Source: Eubacteriales Family XIII. Incertae Sedis bacterium
Lineage (GTDB): Bacteria > Bacillota > Clostridia > Peptostreptococcales > Anaerovoracaceae
DNA: 36,108 nucleotides
NCBI GenBank assembly: GCA_031261395.1
Contig: JAISJT010000090.1
Coordinates: forward strand, 1-36,108
Reading direction: 5' to 3'
Both the position numbers and the translations under genes were made by a program. Position 1 is the stretch's first letter; each line of letters begins with the position of its first letter. The notes beneath the pieces were generated by a model. That model searched no databases and was not told where the DNA came from. It was given only the letters and a program-made list of their open reading frames with translations. This document shows, piece after piece, positions 5,766 to 25,941 of the stretch.

Positions 5766-5795
5766 CGCGCCAAATGCGCGCCATCATTCGCGCCA
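5766..5795. repeat. Triplet direct repeat of CGCGCCA (downstream copy, overlapping fic stop codon)
   Basis: CGCGCCA at 5766, 5777, 5789 (spacing 11, 12 bp). Confidence 0.85.
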
Positions 5796-6824
5796 CCGAT
5801 AGGCCGTGCTTTTCCCGGCACCGGATGGGATCAAGAACCCGGCATCCACCAAATTTTTCAGTCTCCGCTGCACCGTCCGTTTTGGAACAGTTCTCAGGAT
5901 GTCGCACGCATCGGATACCGTTAATTCTCCAAACTGCTTTGCATAACTCAGCAGATCGGTTTCTTCTAAACTAATACGTTTTTTTTCGTCGCCCGGTGCA
6001 ATCAAACGAATGATGGTCAATTCGGCGAAGAGCACTTTGGCAGAGGAAAGAAACCCCTCGGTAAAGTATTCGATCCACGACGAAATATCTGCCCCCTCTT
6101 GGTACTCGCTGCCTTGACATTGATGTAAAGCGGCATAGTATTCTTGTTTCTCTTCGGCGTAGTACGAATCCAGCACGATCGATGAATTGAAGTCATACGC
6201 CTGTAGTCCAAGATAGAGCATGGTTGCCAGTCTTGCCGTCCGGCCATTGCCGTCGGAAAAAGGATGGATCGTCACCAACTGATAATGTAAGATTCCCGAG
6301 GCGATACAGGGGTGAATGTTTGCGGCCTTCGCGGAAAGCCATAGCATCAAATCATTCACAAGCTTGGGCGTTTTCTTCGCCGCCGGTCCACGATACTTCA
6401 CATTTTCATCTTGATCTACAATATAGATATCGCCCTTTCGGTAAGCGCCGGTCTTATCTTTTGGAATCAATTCCGACATCGCGAGCGCATGGAGCTTCAA
6501 AAGGTCCTCCCCCGAAAGCGGTTCGCCGGTCAGTTTTCGTTTTTCAATAAAATCCAGCGCTTTCTTATAATTGCGCACTTCCAGCACGGCATATTCATGC
6601 CGCGTAAGCGTACCATCCGCAAAGACCGCTTCCACCTGCTTGCGCGTCAACCGATTGCCCTCAATCGATGTAGAATTGTACGTTTTTTCTACCGTTGCAC
6701 GATAGCGCATTTCGATCTGCCGCTCCGGCAAAACAGATGCGTGCATAGCCGCCCCCCGAATCGCCTCGATTTGCGCGATCCGGTTCAATATTTCATTCGT
6801 GATCGTATATACCGGTTCAAACAT
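5784..6824 (-). CDS. Fic/DOC family protein with N-terminal inhibitory motif and C-terminal winged-helix-like region
   Basis: Core motif HPFSDGNGRTAR; N-terminal STSIEGNRL resembles the [S/T]xxxE[G/N] inhibitory helix; C-terminal tail ELTVSDACDILRTVPKRTVQRRLKNLVDAGFLIPSG resembles a wHTH. Confidence 0.93.
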   Translation of the reverse strand: MFEPVYTITNEILNRIAQIEAIRGAAMHASVLPERQIEMRYRATVEKTYNSTSIEGNRLTRKQVEAVFADGTLTRHEYAVLEVRNYKKALDFIEKRKLTGEPLSGEDLLKLHALAMSELIPKDKTGAYRKGDIYIVDQDENVKYRGPAAKKTPKLVNDLMLWLSAKAANIHPCIASGILHYQLVTIHPFSDGNGRTARLATMLYLGLQAYDFNSSIVLDSYYAEEKQEYYAALHQCQGSEYQEGADISSWIEYFTEGFLSSAKVLFAELTIIRLIAPGDEKKRISLEETDLLSYAKQFGELTVSDACDILRTVPKRTVQRRLKNLVDAGFLIPSGAGKSTAYRWRE

Positions 6825-6873: not shown

Positions 6874-7092
6874 AGCAGAATCTTACATGCCTATTAGTTC
6901 TACCAAATTTCCGTATTATCCGCGATGAAAACTTATGAAAAACTACGTTCGGAGACCGGCGGCCCATTCTTAGCACAGCAATAGCCTTCGGTTATTTATA
7001 GTATTGCCGAAATTTGAATAGACGATGTATGCCATTCTATATTATTATGTGCATTGAGCCTATTTGCTTTGTATCGTTTTGGAGGATGATGG

Positions 7093-7506
7093 ATGGATAT
7101 TGAATTTGTGCGGGAGTATTTTCGGGCCGACCGCTACTTGACGCTTACCGACGTTGTAATTGAGGAGATCGGCGAAGATTTCTGCCGCTGCCGTATGGAG
7201 GCGGCGCCGAAACATCTCAATGCCGCGGACAGGGTGCAGGGCGGCGCGATTTATACGCTGGCCGACTCCGCTTTTGCTGTGGCCTGCAACGTAGGGCATC
7301 TAAAGCGCGGGGAAGACCTGATCACCGTCAGCCAGTCCGCGACCATCAACTACCTGCGCGCTGTGCAGGGCGGCACGCTCTACGCCGAGGGCCGAAAGAT
7401 CGGCGGCGGCAAGAAGATGGCGCTCTACCGCATGGACGTCACGGACGAGAAAGGCCGCCTCGTCGCCACCATGAACGGCAACGCGTACACGGTACCCAAG
7501 CGCTGA
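7093..7506 (+). CDS. PaaI-family hotdog-fold thioesterase
   Basis: 137 aa; HLNAADRVQGGAIYTLADSAFAVACN and ATINYLRAVQGGTLYAEGRKIGGGKKMALYRMDVTDEKGRLVA are typical of PaaI/4HBT; SD TTGGAGGATGATGG. Confidence 0.92.
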   Translation: MDIEFVREYFRADRYLTLTDVVIEEIGEDFCRCRMEAAPKHLNAADRVQGGAIYTLADSAFAVACNVGHLKRGEDLITVSQSATINYLRAVQGGTLYAEGRKIGGGKKMALYRMDVTDEKGRLVATMNGNAYTVPKR

Positions 7507-7529
7507 ATTTATCAGTCAATCATTGGCGG

Positions 7530-8741
7530 TCAACTATCTGCGTGCAGTTTCACTCCCTGCGCTTTCAGGCGTTCCTGGAGTTTGCGGACGTCGAGATTCG
7601 GAAAATCGCTCGTCAGCGAGGCTGCGGTGCCGGCCGCTTCGCCCGTCACGGCGCACGGCGGGATGACGCGCGAGATATCCCACATCGCATCGGTCACAGA
7701 GATGCAGCGCCCCGCCGCCAGCAAATTCGGAACTTCCGGCCCGTATAGCAGGCGGTACGGCAATTCGTAGGCCGGCCCGCGCTTCCGCCAGTCGCCCGTC
7801 ATGCCTATGCTATCCTCCATGAAGACGCGGCTCTCCGTATCGTCCATCACATAGGCGCCGGAAAGCCGCCGCGACATGCGCACCAGCGGGATTTGCGAGA
7901 TCGTGACCGGCACGAAATCGGACACCGCCGCCTTGTGTTCCAAAATATCCGCATACATAGTGCTGTGGGCCTCGATGACCGCGCGGCTCAGCTCCTCGCC
8001 GTCAACGCCCGAAAAGCGCAGATTCCCGATGCTCTCGACCATCACATTGTCATAGTCCGCATCCTCGTCCGGGATGACGTCGGCCAGCCCAAACATCTTC
8101 AGCTTGACGATTCCTTCCGAATAATAATAATACCAGCTTGCCAGGCCGTTTCCCCCGGCATGGAGCGCCGTTCCGGCCCCGGACAGATGGCAAAGATCAG
8201 CGTCGCCCGTGCAGTCGATGTAGGATTCGGCACGCACCGCCGAGCGCCCCGACTTGTTTTCGATCAGAACCGCAGAAATGAGGTCTGCGTCTTTCAAAAC
8301 CCCGCAGGCCAACGTACCATAAAGGATCCTGACCCCGAGATCGGTCAACAGGCGCTCCGCATCGATCGCAAACAAATGCGGATTGAACTGGACGACATAG
8401 CGATGCTCGATCTTCTCTTCGCGTGTCCCGCCCTCAAGCCAGGCCTTGGGATAATTGGCCTCCGCCCCATGCTTGATGGAGAGATGCAGCAGTTCTTCAC
8501 CCAGTCCGTATATGACTTGATTGCCTTCGCCGTCGTCAAGCGGCAGATAGATCGTGATCAGGCCAAGCGTAGCCATACCGCCCAGACCATACTCCCGTTC
8601 AAGCAGGATCACGCTCTTGCCGTTCCTCGCTGCTGCCGCCGCCGCCGCGATCCCTGCGATCCCGCCGCCGGCCACGAGGACGTCGCACGAAAAACGGATC
8701 TCTGTCTGGCGGCCTTCTTCAAATACCGTATTGCTTCCCAT
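7530..8741 (-). CDS. FAD-dependent oxidoreductase
   Basis: CDVLVAGGGIAGIAAAAAAARNGKSVILLERE dinucleotide-binding motif; ESYIDCTGDADLCHLSGAG. Preferred start MGSNTVFEEGRQ at 8741 with SD CCGGAGGAATAT (ORF track extends to 8861). Confidence 0.9.
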   Translation of the reverse strand: MGSNTVFEEGRQTEIRFSCDVLVAGGGIAGIAAAAAAARNGKSVILLEREYGLGGMATLGLITIYLPLDDGEGNQVIYGLGEELLHLSIKHGAEANYPKAWLEGGTREEKIEHRYVVQFNPHLFAIDAERLLTDLGVRILYGTLACGVLKDADLISAVLIENKSGRSAVRAESYIDCTGDADLCHLSGAGTALHAGGNGLASWYYYYSEGIVKLKMFGLADVIPDEDADYDNVMVESIGNLRFSGVDGEELSRAVIEAHSTMYADILEHKAAVSDFVPVTISQIPLVRMSRRLSGAYVMDDTESRVFMEDSIGMTGDWRKRGPAYELPYRLLYGPEVPNLLAAGRCISVTDAMWDISRVIPPCAVTGEAAGTAASLTSDFPNLDVRKLQERLKAQGVKLHADS

Positions 8742-8943
8742 ATATTCCTCCGGATCAGGCGCTAAAAAAAGTACTGAGTAAATTATATCAGCACGGCCGC
8801 CCAAACCGTCATATATCGTTTGTGTTCCGCTATTCCATGTATATATCCCCGGAATATTCAAATGTCACTATTCACCTGCCGCATTACCAACTATAATCAA
8901 TTCATGAGCATATCACACGAGCCAATCAATAGAGGTCACGCGC

Positions 8944-11259
8944 ATGAATGAGCAGTTAACCGCAGACGTGAAAGCCTACTGCCGAAAACTCGGCGCCGAT
9001 ATCGTGGGCATTGCCCCGGCAGAAAGATGGGCAAACGCTCCCATCGAACGCTCGCCGCTGGGCCTGATGCCCGCCGCCAAATCAGTAGTAGTATGCGGCT
9101 TTCACTATCTCGACGCCTGCGTGGAGCTGAGCGAAAACGACGACATTCGTCTGCCCGGCGCCTCGGTGTCAAACCATGTTGCCTCAGGCCACGCGATGTG
9201 GACGATGTTCAAACTTGCAAAAAACCTTGAACGCCGGGGATACAAAGCGATCCCGATAGCCGTGACACTGTGGTGGAATTACCGCACGAGTCCCGGCGCG
9301 GCGCGCGGATTTTCCTCGGATCTCACACACTATTATGCGGCGGTGGCCGCCGGTCTCGGCGAGATCGGCTGGTCAAATATTTGTCTGACGCCGGAATACG
9401 GCCCCCGGCAGAGGTTGATCTCACTGATCACGGACGCTCCGCTCGCGCCCGATCCGCTATACACAGGAGATCCGCTGTGCGATGGCTGCCTGCAGTGCGC
9501 CAAGCGCTGCCCGACGCAGGCGTTTACAAAAGAAGTAAACGGCATGCTCACCGTAGATTTCGGCGAGCGCCAATTCACCTTTCCGAACAAGAATCTTTGG
9601 CGCTGCGCCGCCGGGGAAAATTTCAACCTCGACGTCCTCGCAGACTGGCCCGAAGAGATCGACGAAGCCGTCGTTTGCTCATTTGGCCGCCGTGCCGCCA
9701 TAGAAGACCCGGGCCTGCGCTACGGATGGAAGATGGGTCTGTGCCTGAAATACTGCGTCCCCAAGAGCCGTAGGTATTACGACAAAAACTACGCCCCCTC
9801 ACCGAGACGCAGGCGGGATGCCGTAAGGGATACGGGCGAGGCCGCACTCGCGGAAACATGGCAAAAAATCACGGCTCATGCGCAGGAAAACGGCGTGGAT
9901 TTCCTCGCGATCACGGATGCAAATGCAATCAAAGCCTCGGGCGCCGATCCCGGTGACTATCTGCCAAACGCCAAAAGCGCCCTCCTCGTCGGGCAAAGTT
10001 ATTCGGAAGGGAACGAAGGCGATTCATTCCGCATGGCCGGACGGAATGCGCTGTGGATAGCCAAGATCCTGCAGGATACCTATGGGTTTGACACGCTGAT
10101 CGAGTCGGGGGTCGACGCAGAAGCCGTTTCCAAAGCGGCCGGGTTTGAACCCGGGAGTGAACGCTGGTGTCTCGCGTCCATTCTGACCGATATGCCCTGC
10201 CCGCAGCCCGCCGCAGGCGAGCGCAGAGGTGGCGGCAGCGGATTCCAAACCGTGCAGGCGAAAACCCTGTATTCTCCCACTGACCTGAAGCAGCGCCTGC
10301 ACGAACTCGCGACCGCCTCCGGCGCCGACCTCTTTGGCGTCGCCCCGGTCTCCCGCCTCGACGCGATCGCGGATCAGCTCACCTCCGTCTTTGGCGGCGC
10401 CGAGTATTTCTGCGCCTATGAACAAGGCTGGGGGCCCAAATCCGAGCTGCCGACCGATATGCGCGGCAGGCCGGCCAATCCGGGTATCCGCGACGTCAGC
10501 CTGACGCCAAAGCGCGCAGCATCCTATCTGCCCGGCGCCACAGCCAAATCGGTGATCGTCATCGGACTGGCCCTGCTCAGCGGCAGCGTCGAAAATGCCG
10601 GCAAGCCACCCGCGCGCAAAGCGGGGCATTTCGGCGCCTTCATACATCAGGAAAGCCTAAAACAAAACGACGAGATCGCACTGAAAATCGTGAAGGCTCT
10701 CGAAGCAAACGGACACCGGGCGAAGATCACGCGTGATCTCGAAGGCCTCGCCTCCGAAAACGCAGGTACCCTGATGCCGGATCTGAAAGCCAACCGTTTC
10801 CCCGCCATCGCCGCCGGGCTGGGCGAACCGGGGAGGAACGGCCTCGTCCTGACGCCGGATTTCGGATCAAAAGTCCGCTTCGTCGCGGTCGTCACGGACG
10901 CCGAACTTCCGGCCGACGACGTTTACAGAGGCAAAGCGCTTTGCACAGGCTGCGGCAGCTGCGTGAATGCCTGCCCCGTGCAGGCGATCTCAGCCAATCG
11001 CGAATACGAAATCGAAGCCGAAAACCGCCGTTTCAAGTGGAGCGAACTCGACCTGCTGCGCTGCGACTGGGCCATGCGCTACGGGCTCGTCGGCGCAGAG
11101 GGACCCGCCTATATCGGCTCTTCAAACGACTTCCCGCCGCCGGAAAAAATCACAAAAGACAGCCTGATCTCAGCGATCAAAGCCGCCGACCAAATTCAAA
11201 AAGTGGAATATTGCCCGATAGTAGAGCGCTGTTTCACGGAATGCCCGCTTAACCGATAA
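8944..11259 (+). CDS. Multi-domain QueG/reductive-dehalogenase-like 4Fe-4S protein (two ferredoxin-bearing modules with a degenerate module between)
   Basis: 771 aa; cluster motifs CDGCLQCAKRCPTQAF and CTGCGSCVNACPVQAI; repeated GADIVGIAPAERW / GVDFLAITDANAI / GADLFGVAPVSRL and LMPAAKSVVV / YLPNAKSALLV / YLPGATAKSVIVI. Confidence 0.85.
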   Translation: MNEQLTADVKAYCRKLGADIVGIAPAERWANAPIERSPLGLMPAAKSVVVCGFHYLDACVELSENDDIRLPGASVSNHVASGHAMWTMFKLAKNLERRGYKAIPIAVTLWWNYRTSPGAARGFSSDLTHYYAAVAAGLGEIGWSNICLTPEYGPRQRLISLITDAPLAPDPLYTGDPLCDGCLQCAKRCPTQAFTKEVNGMLTVDFGERQFTFPNKNLWRCAAGENFNLDVLADWPEEIDEAVVCSFGRRAAIEDPGLRYGWKMGLCLKYCVPKSRRYYDKNYAPSPRRRRDAVRDTGEAALAETWQKITAHAQENGVDFLAITDANAIKASGADPGDYLPNAKSALLVGQSYSEGNEGDSFRMAGRNALWIAKILQDTYGFDTLIESGVDAEAVSKAAGFEPGSERWCLASILTDMPCPQPAAGERRGGGSGFQTVQAKTLYSPTDLKQRLHELATASGADLFGVAPVSRLDAIADQLTSVFGGAEYFCAYEQGWGPKSELPTDMRGRPANPGIRDVSLTPKRAASYLPGATAKSVIVIGLALLSGSVENAGKPPARKAGHFGAFIHQESLKQNDEIALKIVKALEANGHRAKITRDLEGLASENAGTLMPDLKANRFPAIAAGLGEPGRNGLVLTPDFGSKVRFVAVVTDAELPADDVYRGKALCTGCGSCVNACPVQAISANREYEIEAENRRFKWSELDLLRCDWAMRYGLVGAEGPAYIGSSNDFPPPEKITKDSLISAIKAADQIQKVEYCPIVERCFTECPLNR

Positions 11260-11269
11260 TACATTACGG

Positions 11270-12382
11270 TCAATCGATATACGCTGCCCGGAAGCCCAAA
11301 TCCGGGTAGACATACTCCCGCGAATCGCGCAAATACGTATCCCACAAACCGCCCACATAGCTGTCGTACCAAGACCCGCCGCGCGCCGCATAGCGCTCGC
11401 CGTAGTTGCGGACGAACAGATAGACCGGATCCATATCCGGCGATACCGGATAGAGCCCCAGCTCCTTCAGCAAGATATGCACAGGCACCCCGGGCGCCGC
11501 CGCCATATTGCGAAAATACATATATACATAGGCGTAGCTTGCATCCGCCTCCGGCCCCGTATACTGCGGCCTTTCGACCGAGGTACTCAGACAAACGCCG
11601 CCCGGCACGCCCGTGATGCTCGTATTGTCGTCGTTCCCCTCGTTCACCCCATCGTATTTGTAAGTGCCGGGGCTCCCTGGCGACACAAGCCGCCCGTCCG
11701 TACCGATCGCCCGCCACAGCGGACTGTCCGGACTTTCGTCCACATTCAGCGCGCTGTCGTTGTCCGCTATGATCTGCAGCTCGCCATCCTTCACGCGCAG
11801 CCCCGCCGTATGATCCCACATATTGCCGTGCAGATCGCAGATCCCCGCCGAAGTCCCATCATGCGTCCAGGACACCGGCCCGGTCCCCGTCAGCGTCAGT
11901 TCCGTCTTTTCCGGCTCGATCATGAAGGCGCCGGTCGCCCGCACCCCCGCCTCGTGCGAGTGCAGGATATCGTGGCCAAACTCATTGTTCCCGCGCGGCA
12001 GCGTCCCGTTTTTCCGGCTCCAGTGCGCGACCGCCATCCACTCCGCATTCGTCAGCAGATGCCAGCCGGGCCCCTTCTTCGCGCAGGCCTCCCGCGCCTC
12101 GTCGATAGTCATATAGTTCGCAGGCGTCCGCGCAGGCAAACTATACGCCCGGCCCGACTCGATCACATTCAGATACTTGCTGATATAGATGCAGTCCTTG
12201 ACCTCCCCGCCCACAACAAAGGCCGAGCAAGGCGCATTCTCACCGCCATCAAGCACATCGCACCAGCGAAACCGCGGAATGCGCACCATGACGGACGGCA
12301 GTCCGAGGTCGTCAGTGAGCAAAGTATTACGGCCGCCGGTCGCGGCTTCAAGCGCCAGCCTAACGTCGTCAAATCGTCCCAT
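11270..12382 (-). CDS. FGE-sulfatase/C-type-lectin-fold protein resembling a DGR variable protein
   Basis: 370 aa; PARTPANYMTIDEAREACAKKGPGWHLLTNAEWMAVAHWSRKNG, GICDLHGNMWDHTAGLRVKDG, C-terminus ARGGSWYDSYVGGLWDTYLRDSREYVYPDLGFRAAYID. Confidence 0.82.
   Translation of the reverse strand: MGRFDDVRLALEAATGGRNTLLTDDLGLPSVMVRIPRFRWCDVLDGGENAPCSAFVVGGEVKDCIYISKYLNVIESGRAYSLPARTPANYMTIDEAREACAKKGPGWHLLTNAEWMAVAHWSRKNGTLPRGNNEFGHDILHSHEAGVRATGAFMIEPEKTELTLTGTGPVSWTHDGTSAGICDLHGNMWDHTAGLRVKDGELQIIADNDSALNVDESPDSPLWRAIGTDGRLVSPGSPGTYKYDGVNEGNDDNTSITGVPGGVCLSTSVERPQYTGPEADASYAYVYMYFRNMAAAPGVPVHILLKELGLYPVSPDMDPVYLFVRNYGERYAARGGSWYDSYVGGLWDTYLRDSREYVYPDLGFRAAYID
11276..11380 (-). other. Candidate DGR variable region (VR)
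   Basis: RGGSW...DLGFRAAY context as in FGE/CLec-fold DGR targets; Y/D/S codons (TAC, GAC, AGC, TAT, GAT) sit where adenine-rich AAY codons would be expected in a template repeat. Confidence 0.55.
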
Positions 12383-12385
12383 GAT

Positions 12386-12715
12386 CTATCCCTCCCACGC
12401 CCAAAGCGTCAGCACGACCTGCTCCGTATCAAGCGGCTCCGTCGTCCGGACCGCCTGCACAATGCCCAGATCGTCAGCCGAGCCCTTGAAACTCAGCCCG
12501 TTCACCCTGGCCGGTATGTCGATCTCGGCCACATAGCGATGCGCGGGCCCCGTCACCAACCGCCCGCCCGCATCCGCGCTCACATCGATGTGCACCGGAT
12601 AGCCGGCCTGCTGCGCCGCAAGATCGATCTCAAGCGCCCCGCCCCGAAAAGTCAGCACGCTCCCTTTTTGTTCATAATCGATATAGGAACCTTCCTGTTT
12701 CCGTTTCACAATCAT
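12386..12715 (-). CDS. Small conserved-looking hypothetical protein (DGR-target/tail-like operon partner)
   Basis: 109 aa MIVKRKQEGSYIDYEQKGSVLTFRGG...; packed 3 nt after the upstream gene and 3 nt before the FGE-like gene. Confidence 0.75.
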   Translation of the reverse strand: MIVKRKQEGSYIDYEQKGSVLTFRGGALEIDLAAQQAGYPVHIDVSADAGGRLVTGPAHRYVAEIDIPARVNGLSFKGSADDLGIVQAVRTTEPLDTEQVVLTLWAWEG

Positions 12716-12717
12716 TG

Positions 12718-12972
12718 TCAGCGCCCTCCAATCACTGCATAGCCGAGTTTTGTATTTTTCGCCGAGCCCGTATACCCGACTTTGAAGCCGTTGACCGCCT
12801 TGGCTGTGACTTCCACATCCCCGACCTCGCCGTCGGCATGAAGTACTTCCGTGACCACCAGATAGTCAGGATCCGGCTGTTCGATCTTCAGCGCGACGGT
12901 CTGTACCGAATCGTTGAACGGGTAGACCTTGGTGTTCGTGAGCGCGACGCGTCCTGTTTCCGTGATTCCCAT
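12718..12972 (-). CDS. Small hypothetical protein, phage structural/receptor-binding-like
   Basis: 84 aa MGITETGRVALTNTKVYPFNDSVQTVALKIEQ...VNGFKVGYTGSAKNTKLGYAVIGGR; SD AGAAAGGAAAATCG before ATG. Confidence 0.75.
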   Translation of the reverse strand: MGITETGRVALTNTKVYPFNDSVQTVALKIEQPDPDYLVVTEVLHADGEVGDVEVTAKAVNGFKVGYTGSAKNTKLGYAVIGGR

Positions 12973-13006
12973 CGATTTTCCTTTCTGTTCTCCTGTTCTT
13001 CTGCAG

Positions 13007-13951
13007 TCAGTGAATCGTAACACAGAGGCCCAGAGCCTCAAGCTGTGATTTGCGGGCCTGTATGAGCTGATCCGTCGGCGGAGCCGCCTCTACCCTTGGG
13101 CCTTCCCTGTCAAGCCGTTCCCATTTGATAGCGCCCAGACTGTGGTACGGCAGCAGCTGTGTCATCTCCACGGCAGCGCCGAGGTCCGAGATAAAGCGGC
13201 CTGCCGCGTCAAAATCTTCCGTACTGTCGTTGTACATAGGTATGACAGGGATGCGAATCTGCATTTTCCCGCCGGCCGCCGCGATTTTGCGGGCATTCTC
13301 AAGTATGCGCTCGTTTGGCACGCCGGTCCCGCGCGCGTGCTTCGCGCTGTCCATATGCTTGAGATCGTACAAAAACAAGTCCGTATAGGGCAGGATCCGT
13401 TCGATCACAGACCAATCGGCATAGCCGGTCGTGTCGACCGCCGTATGTATCCCTTCGGCCTTGCAGGCCGTGAGCAGCGCGAGCAAAAAATCGGGCTGGC
13501 ACAGACACTCGCCGCCCGACACGGTGACGCCGCCGCCCGAACTATCATAAAATGGCTTGTCGCGCCGGACCTTTTCCATCGCCTCGTCCACCGAAAGATC
13601 CGTGCCGCAAAGATACAGCGCCTTTGAAGGGCAGACCTCCGCGCATTTTCCGCAGTCGTTGCAAAGCGTGCGGTCCACGCGTACGAGCGTGATCTCTCCT
13701 TCGCCGGCCAGAGCCTTCTTCTTTCGTCCGGGTTTTACCGCGCCAGTGGGACACGCGGGCAGGCAGCGCCCGCAGGTTTCGGTCCCCGTGCATTTGACTT
13801 CCATACGGTTGAGTTGGGTCGGAAACGCTTGTGATTCAGGGCTATGGCACCAAAGGCAGCGCAGGGGGCAGCCCTTGAGAAACAGCGTCAGCCGGATACC
13901 CGGTCCGTCATGAACCGAAAACCCTTGGATGTCGTAAAATTTTCCTTTCAC
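13007..13951 (-). CDS. Glycyl-radical enzyme activating protein (radical SAM, ferredoxin insert)
   Basis: KFYDIQGFSVHDGPGIRLTLFLKGCPLRCLWCHSPES (CxxxCxxC); CTGTETCGRCLPACPTGAV and CNDCGKCAEVCPSKAL. GTG start overlaps the GRE stop codon (GTGA). Confidence 0.95.
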   Translation of the reverse strand: MKGKFYDIQGFSVHDGPGIRLTLFLKGCPLRCLWCHSPESQAFPTQLNRMEVKCTGTETCGRCLPACPTGAVKPGRKKKALAGEGEITLVRVDRTLCNDCGKCAEVCPSKALYLCGTDLSVDEAMEKVRRDKPFYDSSGGGVTVSGGECLCQPDFLLALLTACKAEGIHTAVDTTGYADWSVIERILPYTDLFLYDLKHMDSAKHARGTGVPNERILENARKIAAAGGKMQIRIPVIPMYNDSTEDFDAAGRFISDLGAAVEMTQLLPYHSLGAIKWERLDREGPRVEAAPPTDQLIQARKSQLEALGLCVTIH

Positions 13952-16389
13952 ATCGCCAGTTCGGTACGCCGGATCAGGTCTTCCTGACCCTCCGCCTGAA
14001 GCTCCACAAAGTACGCCGAGAAACCCGCGATCCGGACGACAAGATTTTTGTAATCCTCGGGGTTTTTCTGCGCGGCCCTGAGCGTTTCGGCGCTGACCAC
14101 GTTGATCTGGATCTCCATGCCGCCGAGTCCGAAGTATGCGCGGATCAAATCCGTCAGTTTGCGAATGCCGCCTTCCCCGTTCAGCGCATTGGGATGGAAT
14201 TTCATATTGAGCAGCGTCCCGTTGGGATACTGCACCTGATCGATGCTTGAGACCGACACAAGGATGGCCGTCGGGCCGTTCGTATCCATCTGCTGGACAG
14301 GTGAGATGCCGTCCGCCAAGGGCTCGCCCTTGCGCCGGCCGTCCGGCGTCGCCGCCGTACCGCGCCCAAACATCAGATTGGTAGTCACCGGATAAAGGCC
14401 CGCGCTGTAGCGCCCTCTCGGCCCCGTGCACGCATTGCAGGCGTCGCCGAATACCTTGGCTGCCCACTCCGCAAAGATATCGCATTCGCGCAGACCGTTC
14501 CCGTAGTGAGGCGCTTCATTTCTGATATAGCTGAGCAGATCTTCATAGCCGGCCCAGTTCGCCACAAGCGCGTCATACAGCTCGCGCGTAGTGCATTTCC
14601 CGGTATCGAAACACAGGTGCTTGATCATGCTCAGCGAATCCGCCACATTGCCGATGCCTACGCCCGACATCCCGGTGGAATTGTACTTGGCTCCGCCGCT
14701 CATGACGTCTTTGCCGCTTTCCATACAACCTTCGATGGTAGCCGAGACCGTCGGCTGAGGCAGCATCTCCCGCGCGATATAATCAAACGAATTGATATTG
14801 ATGGCCTGCCAGCGTACAAAAAATTCAAACTGTTTTTTGACCGCTTCGAGTACGTCGTCGAAGGTCTTCATTTCATACAGATACCCGGTCGCCGACCCCT
14901 GACGCTGAGGGAAGGGAATCGGCTCGCCCTCTTTCACCGCGAGGCGCTTGTGCAGCGGATAGTGTCCGTCGTTGATCCCAAGCCACAGTGCATTGACGAG
15001 ATTGAGATAGCTCTCTGTACCGTTACCGCCGGGACAACACCATTCGTTGCCCGTGCCGCTTGGCTCGACGCAGCCGATCAGACAATAATTTCTTGCATCC
15101 TCTATCGAAAGTCCTCGGCCCATCAGGGCGGGGATGATGACGTCGTCGTTTTCAAAGGTCGGCACACCGCCCGAGATCTTCGTCGTCTCGATCGCCGCCT
15201 CCCACAGAGCCTCCGGCGTATCCTTGTGGATGCGCAGCGCCTGAGGCGGATCGTGCAGGACCAGACGGCCCATGGTCTGAAGCATCATATAGGTCACAGG
15301 ATTCGTCGCATCCGTGCCGTCTTTCTTGACGCCGCCGAGCGTCATCAGCATACTGCTGACATAGCCGGGATTGGACTGGGTATGAAAATACCCCCAGGGC
15401 TTGTTGAGCTCCGCGACCTTCAGGTAAAACAAATCGAGTATCTCCTGCGCATAGGCCTCCGTGATCCGCCCTGCCCTGATATCCTCTTCATAATACCCGA
15501 CGAGATACTGATCGATACGCCCAAAACTGATCGCATGCATATTGGCGTCGAGGCACATGCAGGTGTGATACATAAAGAGCGTCTGTACTGCGTCAACATA
15601 GCCGCGTGCCGGCTTTTCCATACAGTGATTCAGAGTATCCGCCATCGCCTCGAGTTCGCGCTTGCGTGCGGGGTCCTGCTCCGAAGCCGCTTGCTCTGCG
15701 GCCAGCGCCGCATAGCGTTTGGTCAGCGTGATCATGCCCTCGCTGACGATAGCGACCGCCCGGTAAAAATTGTAGCGGTCGACCGAATCTCCCGGCATGC
15801 CCTCTTCGATGATCCTGGCCTTCTGTTCCTCGGCCTCGGCCTTGATAGCGGCAAAACCTTTGTGCATCGCCGTTTCATAGCCTGCGATGAAATGCCCGAC
15901 CGGCGACTGAGCCTGATTCCTTGCATTGAACAAAAGGACGCCGTTGTCATCATATTGGAAATACTCATCGGCGATCTGCGCATCGCTTTTGGCGCTCATA
16001 CACTCGCCCATCCAAAAGTCGATAGTACCGAGGACATAGTCCTTGTCTTCGTCTGAGATGATATAGGGGTCGATGTCACGCGTCTGGATCGTTCCGTCGC
16101 CGATCTCCTGTTTGAGCCAGATGGCCGAATTTTCGGGATACAGCGCACAGGCGCGGTATTTTGCGGACTGCGCCCCCACGATGACTTCGCCGGGATCGAT
16201 ACGGACCGGAATATTCTCGCAAATATACCGGAACGCTTTTGCCCTCCGCAATATCCCCTCGAGTTCAGGATGCGCCTGATAGAAATCCGTCAGCAGACGA
16301 TACCTTGCCGTACACATTTCCGGCCGGGTATCCCTGTATTTCCTGCGCATCTCCTCAACGCGACCGGTGATCGGTTTCAACTCATACAT
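13948..16389 (-). CDS. Glycyl radical enzyme, dehydratase-type (PFL-like superfamily, substrate unknown)
   Basis: 813 aa; active-site loop NYCLIGCVEPSGTGNEW (Cys-x-Glu); glycyl motif VVRIAGFSAYFVEL near the C-terminus. Confidence 0.95.
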   Translation of the reverse strand: MYELKPITGRVEEMRRKYRDTRPEMCTARYRLLTDFYQAHPELEGILRRAKAFRYICENIPVRIDPGEVIVGAQSAKYRACALYPENSAIWLKQEIGDGTIQTRDIDPYIISDEDKDYVLGTIDFWMGECMSAKSDAQIADEYFQYDDNGVLLFNARNQAQSPVGHFIAGYETAMHKGFAAIKAEAEEQKARIIEEGMPGDSVDRYNFYRAVAIVSEGMITLTKRYAALAAEQAASEQDPARKRELEAMADTLNHCMEKPARGYVDAVQTLFMYHTCMCLDANMHAISFGRIDQYLVGYYEEDIRAGRITEAYAQEILDLFYLKVAELNKPWGYFHTQSNPGYVSSMLMTLGGVKKDGTDATNPVTYMMLQTMGRLVLHDPPQALRIHKDTPEALWEAAIETTKISGGVPTFENDDVIIPALMGRGLSIEDARNYCLIGCVEPSGTGNEWCCPGGNGTESYLNLVNALWLGINDGHYPLHKRLAVKEGEPIPFPQRQGSATGYLYEMKTFDDVLEAVKKQFEFFVRWQAININSFDYIAREMLPQPTVSATIEGCMESGKDVMSGGAKYNSTGMSGVGIGNVADSLSMIKHLCFDTGKCTTRELYDALVANWAGYEDLLSYIRNEAPHYGNGLRECDIFAEWAAKVFGDACNACTGPRGRYSAGLYPVTTNLMFGRGTAATPDGRRKGEPLADGISPVQQMDTNGPTAILVSVSSIDQVQYPNGTLLNMKFHPNALNGEGGIRKLTDLIRAYFGLGGMEIQINVVSAETLRAAQKNPEDYKNLVVRIAGFSAYFVELQAEGQEDLIRRTELAM

Positions 16390-16406
16390 AGCTGCCGTCC
16401 TCCTGC

Positions 16407-16814
16407 CTACTTTTCTTTTTTTGTAATTTCAATATAGCCCTCATCCGCGTTCACAAATACAGTATCACCCGTCTCGATTACTGACAAGGGGTCTGTTTCA
16501 AAATCAGTCATAGCCGGTACGCGCGCGCACATGATGCAGGCGTCGCTGAGCGTATTGCCCCTCCTATGGACATAGGCAGCCGGTATTTTGCCGGTTCCGA
16601 ATTTCATGAAGCCGCCCGACCCGCGCGGAGACGGGAATACTAGTATCTTTCCCTCATAGGGGATCTTGAACAAGGGGTGATACCGCTCGGTGATATAGCC
16701 GTGAACGTCGTCCACGTTGGCAAATCCCTCTATCGGAATCGGCGAAACCAACGCTTCCGCCGTGACCTTGCCCGGCCATTCCGCCCGGCCTTTGATCCTG
16801 ATCGTTTCACTCAT
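16407..16814 (-). CDS. Aconitase X swivel domain/small subunit (DUF126)
   Basis: GFANVDDVHGYITERYHPLFKIPYEGKILVFPSPRGSGGFMKFGTG; adjacent to the catalytic subunit gene. Confidence 0.9.
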   Translation of the reverse strand: MSETIRIKGRAEWPGKVTAEALVSPIPIEGFANVDDVHGYITERYHPLFKIPYEGKILVFPSPRGSGGFMKFGTGKIPAAYVHRRGNTLSDACIMCARVPAMTDFETDPLSVIETGDTVFVNADEGYIEITKKEK

Positions 16815-16820
16815 GTCAGT

Positions 16821-18101
16821 CTACCTCCATTCCCCGCGCCATACGCCCGTCAGGGCGGCGTCTACGCAATCATCCTGTGTGCCGTAGAAGACGTCGAGAT
16901 GATCGTCCGCTTCGGGGAAGAGTCCCGAAATATAATAGGCCTGTTTTGCTGCGTCTACAGCCAAAGCGCGGATCCCGCCCGGTACACCCGCGATCGCCGC
17001 AGGACAGGTGCCGCTCAGCAGTACAGCTCCGGCGTCCTCAAAGATCTTCTTGTAGCCGAGTTGCTCAGCCGTATGATAGAGAGCCGGCACCGTCATGATC
17101 CAAACCGGCACCTTTACCTTCTTGCCTTTCAGCTTGCGCGATAGCAGCATGAGGTCTACCAAATTGTAGTGCGGGCAGCCAAGCGAAACCATCTCAACGG
17201 TATCGCCCCTGTGGTCATTGAGCTTTTCGTAGGTTTTCTTCAGATGCGCTTCGTCAAAGCGCACTTCGCGCGCAGGCTTCTTGCCGCCAAGCGCCCATTC
17301 GAGCGTCGGCGCTTCCGGCGTCGCGCCGGGCACATGATACATCGCGATGCTGCCGCCCGTATTGGCGGCGGTATTGAATTTCTGGTATTGCGTCGTCGTC
17401 GGCTTGGCCGTATGGATCAGCGCGGGCACGTCGAGTCCGCACTCTTCCCCGACAGCAAAGCCGAGGACGTCCCATTCGACATCCGTCTGAATCAGGCGCT
17501 CCGTGTCGATCACGACGGTCGCGAGACGGTTTTCCGGCACATGCATCCCGGAGTATGGCGCTTTGGCGAGAAAGGACGAGGCGAAGCTGCCGTCGATATT
17601 GGACCGTCCGCCGAGTACGGCGTTGCAGTAAGGCACGGCGGAGCTTTCGTTCCACGCGCAGTGCTGGCCCACGGACGGCCAGTAGGATGACGCCAGATAC
17701 GAGGCGCACGAGTAGGTCGTGATCAGCCCCATCCTGACGTATAGCTCCATCCAGTCCGGCTGCATGGCCTTCGCATGGTGCGCCGGGTCGTTGTGCGGCG
17801 GGTAGGCGCAGCCTTCCCAGCCATCGACAAAAGTTGCGCCGTAGAAAGGCGCCTTGTTGGCAAAGGTCGGCGCCTTGAAGACGGCGCCTTCATCCACTAT
17901 TTTTCGCAATTCTTCGATCGGGAACAGATACTCGGGGACCAAAGCCGTCGTCGGTACATGGAAATCCGTCGTCCCGTCAAGGTCTACCATCCGCTCCGCG
18001 CCGGACACTGTCGCCAACTCAACCAGATACGCCATGCAGCGCTGCCGAACAAATCCTTCCGCTCCATCCAGCAAGCGCTTTTCGTCATCTGACAAATACA
18101 T
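16821..18101 (-). CDS. Aconitase X catalytic subunit (DUF521)
   Basis: MYLSDDEKRLLDGAEGFVRQRCMAYLVELATVSGAERMVDLDGTTDFHV..., FVDGWEGCAYPPHNDPAHHAKAM, VSLGCPHYNLVDLMLLSRKLKGK. Preferred start 18101. Confidence 0.92.
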   Translation of the reverse strand: MYLSDDEKRLLDGAEGFVRQRCMAYLVELATVSGAERMVDLDGTTDFHVPTTALVPEYLFPIEELRKIVDEGAVFKAPTFANKAPFYGATFVDGWEGCAYPPHNDPAHHAKAMQPDWMELYVRMGLITTYSCASYLASSYWPSVGQHCAWNESSAVPYCNAVLGGRSNIDGSFASSFLAKAPYSGMHVPENRLATVVIDTERLIQTDVEWDVLGFAVGEECGLDVPALIHTAKPTTTQYQKFNTAANTGGSIAMYHVPGATPEAPTLEWALGGKKPAREVRFDEAHLKKTYEKLNDHRGDTVEMVSLGCPHYNLVDLMLLSRKLKGKKVKVPVWIMTVPALYHTAEQLGYKKIFEDAGAVLLSGTCPAAIAGVPGGIRALAVDAAKQAYYISGLFPEADDHLDVFYGTQDDCVDAALTGVWRGEWR

Positions 18102-18309
18102 TTTTTGCTCCGTTCCTCTTCGTGAAAATCTAACTATCCACATCTAATTTAATGGTCAACACAGCCACTTGTAAAATATCGTTTTTCACTCAAGCATTAC
18201 CTCAATGTAATGGCACGGGTTGAAAAACCATTTGCACCCTACCCACGGTTTGGCTGATAATGATATTGTTATTGCCAAAGCAATTCCGAATCGCGCAAAG
18301 GAGAACACT

Positions 18310-19008
18310 ATGTCTGAAAATTCAATGTCCCCTTATCAAATCATTCAGATCGCTCCGGATGCCTGGCGCATCGAAGAGGAAGTCGTTCGTTTCTTCCTGT
18401 TCGCGGGCCCGGAAAAATGCCTCGTGGTCGATACCGGCTTCGGCGGCAGCAATCCGCTCATAGCCGTGCAGTCTCTGACCGACGTCCCGGGCCTGCTCGT
18501 CAATACCCATGCGGACGGCGACCATACCGGCGGAAATTCGCATTTCAAAAGCGCATATCTCCACCCTGCCGAGTTTGCGAACTATCTCCAATCGGCGCCG
18601 GATCATCAGGCCCTGCCGCTTTGGGAAGGCGACGTCATCGACATAGACTCCAGGCGTTTTGAAGTCATACTGATCCCGGGACATACGCCGGGGAGTATCG
18701 CCCTGCTCGACCGCGAAAACCGTATACTCATCGCCGGTGACAGCGTTTCCGACGCCCCCGTATTCATTTTCGGTGAAGCCCGCAGCCTGCCTGCGCTGAT
18801 CGCTTCTCTGAAAAAATTGGAGTCCATGAACGACGAGTACGATGTGATCTATCCGTCACACGGCAGTTTCCCGCTTCCAAAGGAAGCCGTTTCCGCGCAG
18901 CTGAGAGCCGCGCTGCTTTTGCAGGCCGGTGAACTGGCAGGCGCAGAGCCGCCGTTTGAAGTACCGGCCCTCATGTACGTACACGAAGGCGCATCATTCC
19001 TTTTGTAG
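18310..19008 (+). CDS. MBL-fold metallo-hydrolase
   Basis: LLVNTHADGDHTGGNSHF, VILIPGHTPGSIALLDRENRILIAGDSVSD; SD AAAGGAG before ATG at 18310. Confidence 0.92.
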   Translation: MSENSMSPYQIIQIAPDAWRIEEEVVRFFLFAGPEKCLVVDTGFGGSNPLIAVQSLTDVPGLLVNTHADGDHTGGNSHFKSAYLHPAEFANYLQSAPDHQALPLWEGDVIDIDSRRFEVILIPGHTPGSIALLDRENRILIAGDSVSDAPVFIFGEARSLPALIASLKKLESMNDEYDVIYPSHGSFPLPKEAVSAQLRAALLLQAGELAGAEPPFEVPALMYVHEGASFLL

Positions 19009-19040
19009 GTGAAACAAAGCAGAGAGTAGGAGGCTATACC

Positions 19041-20300
19041 ATGTCCAGAAATGCAATGATTGAATTCGGAATCCCGCAAAGACTGTATCAGGGATCGGGA
19101 AGCATCAAAAAGCTCCCGGAGATCCTCGCTTTAGAAAAATGGACCCGCGTCATGCTGGTCTGTGGGCCGACGCTTTACAAAACCGGCGTCATAGCGCCCA
19201 TCGAATCGATGATCAAAGATAGCGGAGCGGAGTACATCGTCTTCACGCATATCAAACCAAACCCCGAAATAGGCCCCATCGAAGAAGAGGCGCTTCCGGC
19301 CTTCCGCGAATTTGCGCCTGACGTCATCATAGCCGTCGGCGGAGGCAGCACCCTCGATACCGCAAAGGGCATCGTGATCAGCGGAGACTCCGGACGCCCC
19401 ATTCTGGACTTCACGATCGACAAACTGGCGCAGCATGACCGGCTCCCACACAAGACGCCGCCCATGATTGCCATCCCAACCACGGCCGGCACGGGCAGCG
19501 AAGTCGGCGCCAATGCGGTGATCGGCGACGAAAACGGACTCAAACTCGTCATCAGGCACGATGCAATCGTGCCTGCATACGCACTGCTCGATCCCGATCT
19601 GCTGGCCGGTCTGCCCTTTTCCGTAGCTGCCGCGACCGCTATGGATACCTTCGTGCAAGCACTCGAAACCCTGACCAACCAAAACGCCAACGATTTCACA
19701 AGGACCTGCTCCTTGCGCTCCCTTGAATTGGTCGGCGAAGCCATCCGCTCATTTGTCGCAGATCCTTCTCACCCCGTCTATGCCGACAAGATGAGCCGCG
19801 CCTGCATGTGGGCCGGATTTTCACTTGGCCTCGCCGGGATCGGCCAGGATCACGTGATCACGCATCCGATGGGCGAAGCGCCCTTTGATCTCCCCCACGG
19901 TGACGCCTGCGGCATGGTCCTGCCAGCCGTCATCGAATACAACGGCCTGGCGTGCAAAGACCTCTACCATCAGGCCTACGACGCCCTGACCGGAGGGCAT
20001 ACAGCGTTTTCGGATTTCGAAGTGCAGCAGCTGATAGACTGGTGTGTCGCCCTCAACGGCGACCTTCACATCGCAAAGGACAAGTCCTTTGAAGAATGGG
20101 GCTATGACGGAAAAGAGACGCTCGAACTGATGATGCGCCACCCGATCATGAAGATCGCGATCGCCCTCAACGAGCCCCAGGGTCAGACCGAATACCCCCG
20201 CCGCACCGGCGACGCCGAATACCGGAAAATCATCGAGCGCGTAGCTATCTACTCAAAAGCGCAGGCAGAGGCCGCCAAAGCCCGCCTGTCAGAGATCTAA
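19041..20300 (+). CDS. Iron-containing alcohol dehydrogenase
   Basis: DVIIAVGGGSTLDTAKGI, IPTTAGTGSEVGANAVIGD, ITHPMGEAPFDLPHGDACGMVLPAVIEYN. Confidence 0.95.
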   Translation: MSRNAMIEFGIPQRLYQGSGSIKKLPEILALEKWTRVMLVCGPTLYKTGVIAPIESMIKDSGAEYIVFTHIKPNPEIGPIEEEALPAFREFAPDVIIAVGGGSTLDTAKGIVISGDSGRPILDFTIDKLAQHDRLPHKTPPMIAIPTTAGTGSEVGANAVIGDENGLKLVIRHDAIVPAYALLDPDLLAGLPFSVAAATAMDTFVQALETLTNQNANDFTRTCSLRSLELVGEAIRSFVADPSHPVYADKMSRACMWAGFSLGLAGIGQDHVITHPMGEAPFDLPHGDACGMVLPAVIEYNGLACKDLYHQAYDALTGGHTAFSDFEVQQLIDWCVALNGDLHIAKDKSFEEWGYDGKETLELMMRHPIMKIAIALNEPQGQTEYPRRTGDAEYRKIIERVAIYSKAQAEAAKARLSEI

Positions 20301-20310
20301 CAATAGCGGA

Positions 20311-21096
20311 TCAATAGATATTCCCGCCGCCGGAGACTATCAGGGACTGGCCGGTCACGAAAAGATCCTGCTGGGCGAAAAACAGTACCGCGCGCGCGAT
20401 ATCGACCGGCTGCGCTATGCGCCCAAGCGGCGTGATGCTTTTCACGATATCAAACTCCTCAGGCAGGGAATCGTCCTTCATCGGCGTATTGACCAGACCG
20501 GGGAGGATCGCATTGTAGGTGATCCCGTAGCGGCCGTAGCGCCTGGCAAAGGCCTTGGTTTGCGTAATAGCGCCGGCCTTCGATGCCGTGTATCCCGGCA
20601 CCCCGTATGACCCGTCGAGGCCAAGTACCGAGGCGACATTGACGACACGCCCAAACCCCTGCTCCTTCATAGCGGGCAGGACGGCAAGATTCATGAGGTA
20701 GTGGCCCAGACTATGCACGCGGAAAAATTCAAGATATTCTTCCGGTTCCTGTGAATCGAAAAATTCCTCGTAGCGGCTTTGACCCGGTTCAACCTTTAAT
20801 TCGATACCGGCATTGTTGACCAAGATATCGATCCGCCCAAATGCATCTATCACAGCCTTTACGCCCTCTGTCACAGAGGCTTTGTCCGAGACGTCGACCG
20901 ACAGCGCGAGCACGCCGTCGGTGTACTTCAGGCATTCGTCCGTCGTTGCCTGAAGCGGCGCGGTCCGGCGTCCGAACAGAGCGACCTTTGCACCGCCCTT
21001 TGCCAGTTCCGCGGCACAGGAGGCGCCGATACCGGTACCCGCCCCCGTGATGATCGCTACGCGTCCGCCAAATCCATAATCCTCGTATTTTGCCAT
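20311..21096 (-). CDS. SDR-family oxidoreductase
   Basis: GRVAIITGAGTGIGASCAAELAKGGAKVALFGR; DILVNNAG; YTASKAGAI (YxxxK). Confidence 0.95.
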   Translation of the reverse strand: MAKYEDYGFGGRVAIITGAGTGIGASCAAELAKGGAKVALFGRRTAPLQATTDECLKYTDGVLALSVDVSDKASVTEGVKAVIDAFGRIDILVNNAGIELKVEPGQSRYEEFFDSQEPEEYLEFFRVHSLGHYLMNLAVLPAMKEQGFGRVVNVASVLGLDGSYGVPGYTASKAGAITQTKAFARRYGRYGITYNAILPGLVNTPMKDDSLPEEFDIVKSITPLGRIAQPVDIARAVLFFAQQDLFVTGQSLIVSGGGNIY

Positions 21097-21135
21097 TGTT
21101 TGAAAACCTCCTTTGCGCTTTTGGGAAGCGCTTCC

Positions 21136-22155
21136 CTAAGATATCGCCCTATCCGTCAAGGCGACTTCATCTTCCCTCGTGATGGTGACCGCCCGCTTGC
21201 TTTCCCAATCCTTCATCTTGATCACGGCGAACATGATGAGGATGATGACCAGACCCTGCGACAGTTCCTTCGCAAAGGCCGTATTGTAGCCCATCAGCCC
21301 AAGGCCGTTTTTCAGGATCGCAAAGGTAAAGCAGCCGAGCAGGAGTTTGGGCAGCTTCGTACTATAGCCGCCGGTGACCAGGATGCAGCCGGCAAAGATA
21401 CAGGCGATGACGTCCACTTCGAGGTTTTGCCCGATGGTATTGTTGGTCCCGCCGTTTCTGGCCAAATAGAAGAGTCCTGCGACGCCGGCCATCAGACCCG
21501 AAAGACCGAAAGCCCACAGCTTGACGTTTTTGATCGGTACGCCGACATTGCGCGCGACCAATTCGTTCTCGCCGATCGAGCGGCAGTAATGCCCGAATTT
21601 GGTATGCGTCAGCACGAGATAGACGACCACGATGAGCGCCACGAAGAGCGGATACTTCACAAAACTCTCTTTCAGCAAAAGCAGCGGACCCGCTGTCTGA
21701 TAATACATGGTCGGAAAGAGCTCTTCAAAGACCTCTGTTTGCGTGTAGATGATCATGCCGCGGATGCCGAGCAGCCAGGCAACCGTCACCATGAAGGACG
21801 GCACCTTCAGGCGCCCTACGAGGACGCCGTTGATCAGCCCTATGCCGAGAGCCGCTGCCAGCGTGACGGGTATCGCCGTCCAGTCCACACCCCAGATCGT
21901 CGCAAGACTCGTCCCGATGATACAGGAAATACCGAGATTGGCTCCGATCGAAAGGTCGGCGCTGCCCATGGCGATGACAAAGAGATAGCCGAGACCGGCG
22001 ATGATATAGATGATTGAAGAATCGATGATATTTGTCAGACTGAATTTCGAAATTTCATTTCCGCCCGTCAGGAACAGAAAGACCACGAAAATACCGACCA
22101 TGAGGATCACCGAAGTCAGCATGCTGACATCCATTTTTGCCCGCCGTATTTTCAT
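21136..22155 (-). CDS. Ribose-type ABC transporter permease (system 1)
   Basis: GSADLSIGANLGISCIIGT; multiple TM segments; overlaps the ATPase gene by 4 nt. Confidence 0.93.
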   Translation of the reverse strand: MKIRRAKMDVSMLTSVILMVGIFVVFLFLTGGNEISKFSLTNIIDSSIIYIIAGLGYLFVIAMGSADLSIGANLGISCIIGTSLATIWGVDWTAIPVTLAAALGIGLINGVLVGRLKVPSFMVTVAWLLGIRGMIIYTQTEVFEELFPTMYYQTAGPLLLLKESFVKYPLFVALIVVVYLVLTHTKFGHYCRSIGENELVARNVGVPIKNVKLWAFGLSGLMAGVAGLFYLARNGGTNNTIGQNLEVDVIACIFAGCILVTGGYSTKLPKLLLGCFTFAILKNGLGLMGYNTAFAKELSQGLVIILIMFAVIKMKDWESKRAVTITREDEVALTDRAIS

Positions 22156-23660: not shown

Positions 23661-24619
23661 TTCACCACCTCCTTGGTTCCTCTTTGTGCGATGATGCCAA
23701 AGACGATGATAAAGAGCGCCAACATGAATTCAGAGATAGTGCCGGACGGTATGCCGACAAGGCTCAAAACGTTATAGCAGATATATATGATTACGGCGCA
23801 AAGCGGCACCGCGATGATCATATTGATCCACCTGCTGATGACCTGAGCGATAAAGATCGCCGCAAACGGCGGAAAGATCACGGCCAGACTCGACAGACTC
23901 GAGGGAACATTGACGAGCAGCGAATAGCTCTCCCTGAGAAAGCCGGCACAGCCGATGAATATGCCGCATACCACGCCGGTCAGGATCAGTGTCTTCGTCA
24001 CATTGATCCCCATCGCCTTCGCAACGGCCTGATTGCTTCCGACCGAGCGCGCGTTCAGCCCGAGCGACGAGCGGTTGTAAAGAATATAGGCGAGGATGAT
24101 GCCTATGATGAACATGACATAGATCAGCGGCGGCCGCCCGAGGATGCCGTACTCCGACTTCAGCATGACCAGATTGGCGCCGACGCTTTCCTTGTAGCGC
24201 TGATAAACAGAAATGATTGCTTCGTAGATGAGCGCAAGGCCAAGCCCCGCGACCCAGGACGGAATCTTCAAAAATGCAAACAGGGAAAAATTAAATGTCA
24301 TAACGACAACACCGACTACGATCCCGGCGATCACGAGTCCGACCGGCCCCAGGATATTCCCGAGTTCGCCGGAGGCATAGACACAGAGCATGATCACGGC
24401 GCCGATGGAAAAGTCCATATAGTTAAGCGCGAAGACAAAACAAAAGCCCCAGGCAATGAAAGACGCCAGGATGGAATTCGTAAGAATCTGATTGATATTG
24501 GAACCGGTCAGAAATTTGCCGTCACAGGCAATGTTGAAAATGAAGGCAAATGCAACGATTACAAGCACCAGGATCAGAATAGAAATCACCATCTTTTTGA
24601 GATTTCCGGTTACATCCAT
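23657..24619 (-). CDS. Ribose-type ABC transporter permease (system 1, second permease)
   Basis: Hydrophobic; NYMDFSIGAVIMLCVYASGELGN, GLNARSVGSNQAVAKAMGINVTKTLILTGVVCG. Preferred start MDVTGNLKK at 24619 with SD GGGAGGAG. Confidence 0.92.
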   Translation of the reverse strand: MDVTGNLKKMVISILILVLVIVAFAFIFNIACDGKFLTGSNINQILTNSILASFIAWGFCFVFALNYMDFSIGAVIMLCVYASGELGNILGPVGLVIAGIVVGVVVMTFNFSLFAFLKIPSWVAGLGLALIYEAIISVYQRYKESVGANLVMLKSEYGILGRPPLIYVMFIIGIILAYILYNRSSLGLNARSVGSNQAVAKAMGINVTKTLILTGVVCGIFIGCAGFLRESYSLLVNVPSSLSSLAVIFPPFAAIFIAQVISRWINMIIAVPLCAVIIYICYNVLSLVGIPSGTISEFMLALFIIVFGIIAQRGTKEVVK

Positions 24620-24701
24620 ATTGCTCCTCCCTCTCCCTCTCATGGCGGGAATCGCCCGCAGAGGCGATTCCCGTATTGAATTTGTATAGAACCGAGTTTG
24701 T

Positions 24702-25916: not shown

Positions 25917-25941
25917 TTTTTCTTTCCTCCTTTAATATACT

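Follow-up and report, generated by a model that had tools for sequence, protein, structure and literature searches.

RT-less relatives of DGR variable proteins with a fixed binding tip, probably co-opted by anaerobic catabolic operons of Clostridia

A group of variable proteins (VPs) from gut and rumen Clostridia has probably been frozen at a single specificity and recruited into anaerobic catabolic operons, where its members would act as fixed ligand-binding components; we assign this reading a probability of roughly 0.6. In DGR phage proteins, the binding tip is normally randomised by a mutating retroelement. The protein described here was encoded at 11270-12382 on the minus strand of the window, i.e., the whole 36,108-nucleotide stretch of DNA that was analysed. 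It was a 370-aa protein of the FGE-subtype C-type-lectin fold and an RT-less relative of the DGR variable proteins. The open reading frame, its coordinates and the RGGSW...GFRAA frame given in a preliminary description were all confirmed, and the C-terminal end of the protein was ARGGSWYDSYVGGLWDTYLRDSREYVYPDLGFRAAYID.

By descent, the window protein belongs to the DGR variable proteins, to which it is related over its full length. PHROG 2889 (phrog_2889) spanned the whole sequence (E 2e-110), and tblastn found full-length relatives in Faecalibacterium phage Lagaffe (38.6% identity) and Pseudomonas phage Bise (36.8%) as well as in Dulem virus 37, Vibrio phage VHML and others. As a single protein, it had only one sequence match in the PDB, namely TaqVP from Thermus aquaticus (5vf4, E 8e-69). 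Together with the 37-39% identity to the Lagaffe and Bise VPs, the PHROG and PDB matches bore out the earlier assignment to the DGR type. The AlphaFold model was confident (pLDDT 94.5, pTM 0.94) and Foldseek matched it to 5vf4 at TM 0.94. The full-length fold was common to TaqVP and the window VP (TM 0.94/0.91, 39% identity in the structural alignment; PMC6328139), the variable region (VR) was placed at the extreme C-terminus in both, and the nonvariable binding-site residue W349 of TaqVP aligned with W338 of the window VP. However, TaqVP belonged to a prophage DGR with reverse transcriptase (RT), Avd and template repeat (TR), whereas the window VP lacked all three and its tip was conserved. 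Similarly, the Lagaffe DGR target gp26 (PMC5883640) was related to the window VP from end to end and was preceded by the same gene order, gA-gB-VP, but Avd, TR and RT adjoined the Lagaffe VP while the window locus was a catabolic operon. Variation in the Lagaffe VR has been reported (PMC5883640).

The window VP also matched Pfam FGE-sulfatase (1.1e-6), that is, the PF03781 superfamily that it has in common with the formylglycine-generating enzyme (FGE) and EgtB. This match and the FGE sub-fold would suit an enzyme of that superfamily working in the pathway. However, the last hundred residues contained no cysteine, which ruled out the FGE cysteine site. Unlike FGE, the window protein had no catalytic cysteines, and the earlier opinion that it was not a catalytic FGE therefore stood. 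The structural match was weak as well (TM about 0.3 to FGE and to EgtB, versus 0.94 to TaqVP), and we regard an enzymatic role of this kind as improbable. A comparison with Mtd and TvpA had also been proposed. The FGE-subtype DGR variable proteins BPP-1 Mtd and Treponema TvpA did have the general C-type-lectin binding fold in common with the window VP, but they were distant (TM about 0.3, the value obtained with Mtd) and TaqVP was far closer.

Two small genes preceded the VP on the same strand. The gB gene (12386-12715, minus strand) encoded a beta-rich partner of 109 aa that was identified by phrog_8734 (E 1e-17) and a 62-member profile (E 2e-24); it had no match in the PDB despite a confident beta-rich AlphaFold model (pLDDT 92.5). 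The gA gene (12718-12972, minus strand) was a small phage gene recognised by phrog_9010 (E 6e-26) and a profile (E 5e-29), and its start, read from the sequence, was an ATG at 12972 behind AAAGGA. The spacing was tight: 34 bases separated the glycyl radical enzyme activase from gA, two separated gA from gB and three separated gB from VP. In phages, gA precedes gB, and this order was fixed across dozens of viral contigs. In four phage records, the TR and the reverse transcriptase came after the VP homologue and an Avd-like gene was present. Moreover, an alignment-based scan yielded 80 viral contigs with the canonical order gA-gB-VP-Avd-TR-RT wherever the contig was long enough; a viral-contig scan with a single sequence gave no match. 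The VR/TR pairs from the four phages and about 45 viral contigs differed almost only at TR adenines. Since gA and gB lay immediately upstream of VP, the window carried the first three genes of the phage block, and Avd, TR and RT, expected next, did not follow. The preliminary description had placed the protein in a metabolic rather than a phage setting. The neighbours were indeed metabolic, and no phage gene beyond gA and gB was found around the window VP, but 12386-12715 and 12718-12972 had been missed as genes of a phage block.

The absence of RT and TR, noted earlier for the window, extended to the whole genome bin (2.06 Mb, 145 contigs, 83% complete), in which neither RVT_1 nor a second VR-like copy was found. 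A 63-base VR pattern allowing "each base or A" and 3 mismatches matched only itself in the bin. A 20-base VR match in contig C43 was a chance match inside a chemotaxis receptor gene. Thus, the window VP had no nearby RT, Avd or TR, no remote RT or TR in the bin, and no hypervariation between species confined to template adenines. Around the other RT-less (orphan) loci, no RT or Avd was found in the DNA examined. An RT was encoded elsewhere in six genomes of the main orphan clade, where it resembled phage DGR RTs along parts of its length only (24-35% identity), and in a seventh (G004) a weak partial RT match fell below the family cut-off. The RTs of the six genomes were rejected as remote DGRs because the similarity was weak and partial and there was no TR-like repeat against their own VP. 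Five rumen genomes with orphan VPs (L055, L057, L058, L059, L062) shared an RT with the motif GIMAGTPLSAF(Y/C)ANLYL that was neither clearly of the DGR type nor of the group II type.

The positions that a DGR would mutate were located by mapping 42 phage-DGR TRs on the alignment. The VR equivalent corresponded to aa 334-365 of the window VP (11288-11383, minus strand), and the template-adenine (TR-A) codons were aa 337, 339, 340, 343, 350, 352, 353, 357, 359 and 361. The residues that had looked variable in the preliminary description did fall on template-adenine codons. Their proposed origin from AAY codons was not apparent everywhere, since V343 was encoded by GTG.

The orphan set consisted of the window VP and 15 further VPs from rumen, horse and other gut Clostridia bins, which were found by a genome-collection scan with peptide patterns outside the VR and by a family search. 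Every genome of the main orphan clade was a metagenome bin. At the TR-A columns, the mean entropy was 0.61 bit in the 16 orphans. When 16 of the 52 RT-bearing VPs were drawn at random 2000 times, it was 2.67 (minimum 2.38), and all 52 together reached about 3 bits. The remaining VR columns were similar in the two groups (0.75 in orphans, 0.84 in RT-bearing VPs). Conservation of TR-A residues among orphans ranged from 64 to 100% overall. S337, Y350, R352 and D361 were each present in 16/16 orphans and D340 in 15/16, positions 357 and 359 were aromatic, as was 339 nearly always, and 353 was an acid. Additionally, P360 (16/16) and W347 (15/16) were newly fixed. At 40-60% core identity, the TR-A residues were identical in 13% of cases for RT-bearing pairs and 64-68% for orphan pairs; at 75-90% core identity the values were 11% and 91%.

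The claim that the protein was a hypervariable target therefore failed the check proposed in the preliminary description itself: homologues at 50-59% identity kept the putative variable residues (9/10 in L010 and L016, both of the window's family, 5-8/10 in the other orphans), against a mean of 0.13 for RT-bearing VPs at equal divergence. Within the VR, pN was 0.00-0.13 over a pS of 0.17-0.58 in orphan pairs, and two RT-bearing pairs had 0.184/0.039 and 0.150/0.000. The core dN/dS of the orphans was 0.07-0.19, with the VR mostly under still tighter constraint. We are highly confident that the orphan VPs are fixed, selected, RT-less variable proteins.

These data also bear on whether the window VP is an active DGR target served by an RT and a template elsewhere in the genome. 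Its fold and mutable positions matched those of DGR targets, remote targets exist in other bacteria (PMC8867640), and a gap remained in excluding a remote RT or TR because the bin was just 83% complete. However, the bin had neither element, the RTs of the six other orphan genomes did not qualify, and the TR-A residues were conserved across genera, which makes active remote mutagenesis very improbable. Thus, of the two options offered earlier, a remote or an orphan target, only the orphan was retained.

The gB gene provided insights into what happened to the block in the host. It was a separate gene in the window and in L037, and L035/L016 and L027 had it fused to the N-terminus of VP. All that was left of it in the Oscillospiraceae clade from the rumen was a C-terminal stub (MEIIKTGxxDDxGFPVLKKVGEPEPV), also fused to VP. 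The short aligned stretch suggests that this stub derives from gB. Taken together, the fusion series points to remodelling of a retained gene rather than decay. A functionless, decaying prophage fragment that survived by chance would agree with the phage nature of gA-gB-VP and with a neighbourhood without any other phage gene. However, the frames were open at 50-59% identity across genera, the core was under purifying constraint as given above and the VR mostly tighter still, and new conserved residues, fusions and tight operon spacing were observed. We therefore give chance survival little credence.

A tree of 75 proteins (335 columns, VR left out, LG+C20+F+G4 PMSF, midpoint-rooted) placed the 16 orphans in one monophyletic group (support 100/99) among the VPs of Firmicutes phage DGRs. 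The nearest relatives of this clade were the phage DGR L076 and the baseplate-bearing contig L040 (88/92), apart from the long-branched RT-less L042. The VPs of proteobacterial phages fell across the midpoint from the orphans. Since the root was a midpoint, the direction of transfer is one that we infer: it would have been from phage to host, and the association of VP with the phage genes gA and gB supports this. The opposite history, in which the cellular clade was ancestral and phages acquired the scaffold from it, would be compatible with a tree that does not infer a root. However, the orphans fell together as one clade among the VPs of Firmicutes phages, and those of proteobacterial phages lay beyond the midpoint. 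The window also retained two phage genes, gA and gB, whose order did not vary across dozens of viral contigs. A cellular origin is thus hard to credit.

In the window, the block stood at the end of a cluster on one strand with the order ABC importer, short-chain dehydrogenase, AcnX, glycyl radical enzyme (GRE), activase, gA, gB and VP. The sugar-type importer (21136-25916, minus strand, like all genes of the cluster) comprised two BPD_transp_2 permeases, an ATPase and a Peripla_BP_4 binding protein, and was followed by the short-chain dehydrogenase (20311-21096; PF00106). The large subunit of AcnX was hydroxyproline-dehydratase-like (16821-18143; PF04412, 292 bits), and its small (swivel) subunit was encoded at 16407-16814 (PF01989, NF003046). 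The GRE (13948-16389, 813 aa) had Pfam PFL-like (561 bits) and Gly_radical (114 bits) domains but scored under the NCBIfam cut-off of all named GRE equivalogs. Its nearest solved relative by E-value was the B12-independent glycerol dehydratase (1r8w). The radical-SAM GRE activase (13007-13942; TIGR02494, 331 bits, cut-off 174) lay directly upstream of gA. Possibly, the GRE, AcnX and the activase form an unassigned pathway.

The opposite strand encoded an Fe-dependent alcohol dehydrogenase and a metallo-beta-lactamase-fold protein. Convergent with VP was a 771-aa protein (8944-11259, plus strand) with two tandem reductive-dehalogenase/QueG-like iron-sulfur modules (TIGR02486, 107 bits, below the cut-off of 160), which had no close match in three congeners. 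A search for the empty site through this iron-sulfur protein found the locus in none of the three. A Fic/DOC-family protein (5784-6824, minus strand) was separate from the catabolic cluster. No Rfam family was found in 7000-26500, and no terminator or promoter signal around VP rose above chance.

Most of the orphans adjoined metabolic genes (GRE, AcnX, dehydrogenases, sugar transporters), although the neighbourhoods varied by sublineage. A GRE immediately adjoined VP in L028-L030 (same strand) and in L034 and L038 (convergent), and GREs lay less than 10 kb from VP in L039 and L041. Since the orphan genomes had 5-29 GREs each, adjacency to a GRE alone was weaker as evidence. AcnX was near VP in L027 and L035; it was single-copy in the window genome and in those of L035 (G226) and L027 (G391), at 4.4, 3.3 and 3.0 kb from VP, respectively. 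Zn-dehydrogenase, amidohydrolase, URO-D-like and flavin oxidoreductase genes were among the other neighbours. No GRE or AcnX was found in the DNA examined around L026, L031-L033, L036 and L037. Several of these rumen and gut genomes carried more than 20 GREs, and in the L039 genome at least six GRE genes stood in a row on one strand (G402, contig C16, 72033-89558). Judged from gene neighbourhoods, the host function of the orphan VPs is probably tied to the catabolic operon.

A captured receptor-binding protein might also serve against phages, as a decoy or a superinfection block, or be a tailocin part, its metabolic position then being incidental. The descent from a tail-tip protein would allow this. 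However, no other tail gene was seen near any orphan (queries with phage baseplate and tape-measure proteins matched the separate contig L040 but none of the orphan loci), and catabolic placement recurred, with AcnX at 3-4.4 kb in three lineages and an aldehyde dehydrogenase with a sugar symporter in two genera. We consider an anti-phage or tailocin role unlikely.

The last of these placements belonged to another RT-less VP lineage (L164, L169, L165), found in G361, G362 and G122 from two genera of the window's family. Here, VP adjoined an aldehyde dehydrogenase gene (Aldedh), and an MFS_2 sugar symporter was within one gene. Pfam identified a TetR-type gene nearby in G122, and a TetR-like gene was recognised by eye in G361. 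No phage genes were seen near these VP loci. At 44% core identity, the tips of L018 and L020 agreed in 6/10 TR-A residues, a level reached by 1/905 RT-bearing pairs at 40-60% core identity. The tree separated the Aldedh/MFS_2 lineage from the main orphan clade, but a single origin had a p-AU of 0.215 and two independent domestications were thus not secured.

Within the same order, G405, G476 and G479 held an intact gA-gB-VP-Avd-RT, with adjoining baseplate genes in G405 and G476. In the window's family, G207 had three DGR loci with similar VPs (C9:580306, C9:1090312, C8:324395; L017, L022, L024, L025); stop codons interrupted one VP, and the VR accounted for most of the difference between the two intact copies. 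VP homologues were also present in Vibrio, Marinomonas and Shewanella (L044, L045, L048, L049), where no RT was detected in the DNA examined; V. ruber (L045) had two VP copies in tandem. These could be further frozen or remote targets.

The preferred reading, a frozen and co-opted VP, would imply the following course of events. An ancestral Firmicutes phage would have had the tail block gA-gB-VP-Avd-TR-RT, with a VP tip that bound host receptors and was diversified. The fragment gA-gB-VP would then have passed to the host with Avd, TR and RT left behind, so that the tip became fixed in a single set of residues (S-[YF]-D...Y-R-[DE]...[FY]-[YF]-D). The host would subsequently have retained the fragment in operons of anaerobic catabolism (GRE, AcnX, dehydrogenases, sugar importers). 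Fusion of gB to VP, or its trimming, would have come later. The product would be a cytoplasmic, soluble, non-enzymatic binding protein that may act in the pathway as a sensor, a carrier or an assembly factor. It is slightly more likely than not that the former variable face binds one fixed putative ligand, which might be a small molecule of the pathway or another protein, for instance the GRE or the activase.

In the non-subscription literature on DGRs (with GREs, exaptation, domestication and orphan targets), we found no account of metabolic operons that hold an RT-less VP family. DGRs were covered solely as active mutators by a review on the recruitment of mobile elements (PMC8987985). The DGR survey of Roux et al. 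(2021) was RT-first and stated that targets not adjoining an RT would be missed (PMC8144416). Since surveys start from the RT, RT-less descendants of VPs are invisible to them. More tentatively, DGR VPs may be a recurrent source of fixed-specificity binders, where hypermutation samples, loss of RT and template freezes the winner, and catabolic operons recruit it, at least once and perhaps twice. The formerly randomised positions of these natural fixed binders are known exactly, and the ligand and the selection are therefore directly testable. The orphan VP family shows a possible fate after loss of the mutator, in which the binding face stops varying and joins the more constrained parts of the protein. 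Moreover, it adds an uncharacterised component to the GRE/AcnX pathways of rumen and gut Clostridia. If the proposed reading is true, new ligand-binding proteins would arise in nature by a route of "diversify, select, fix".
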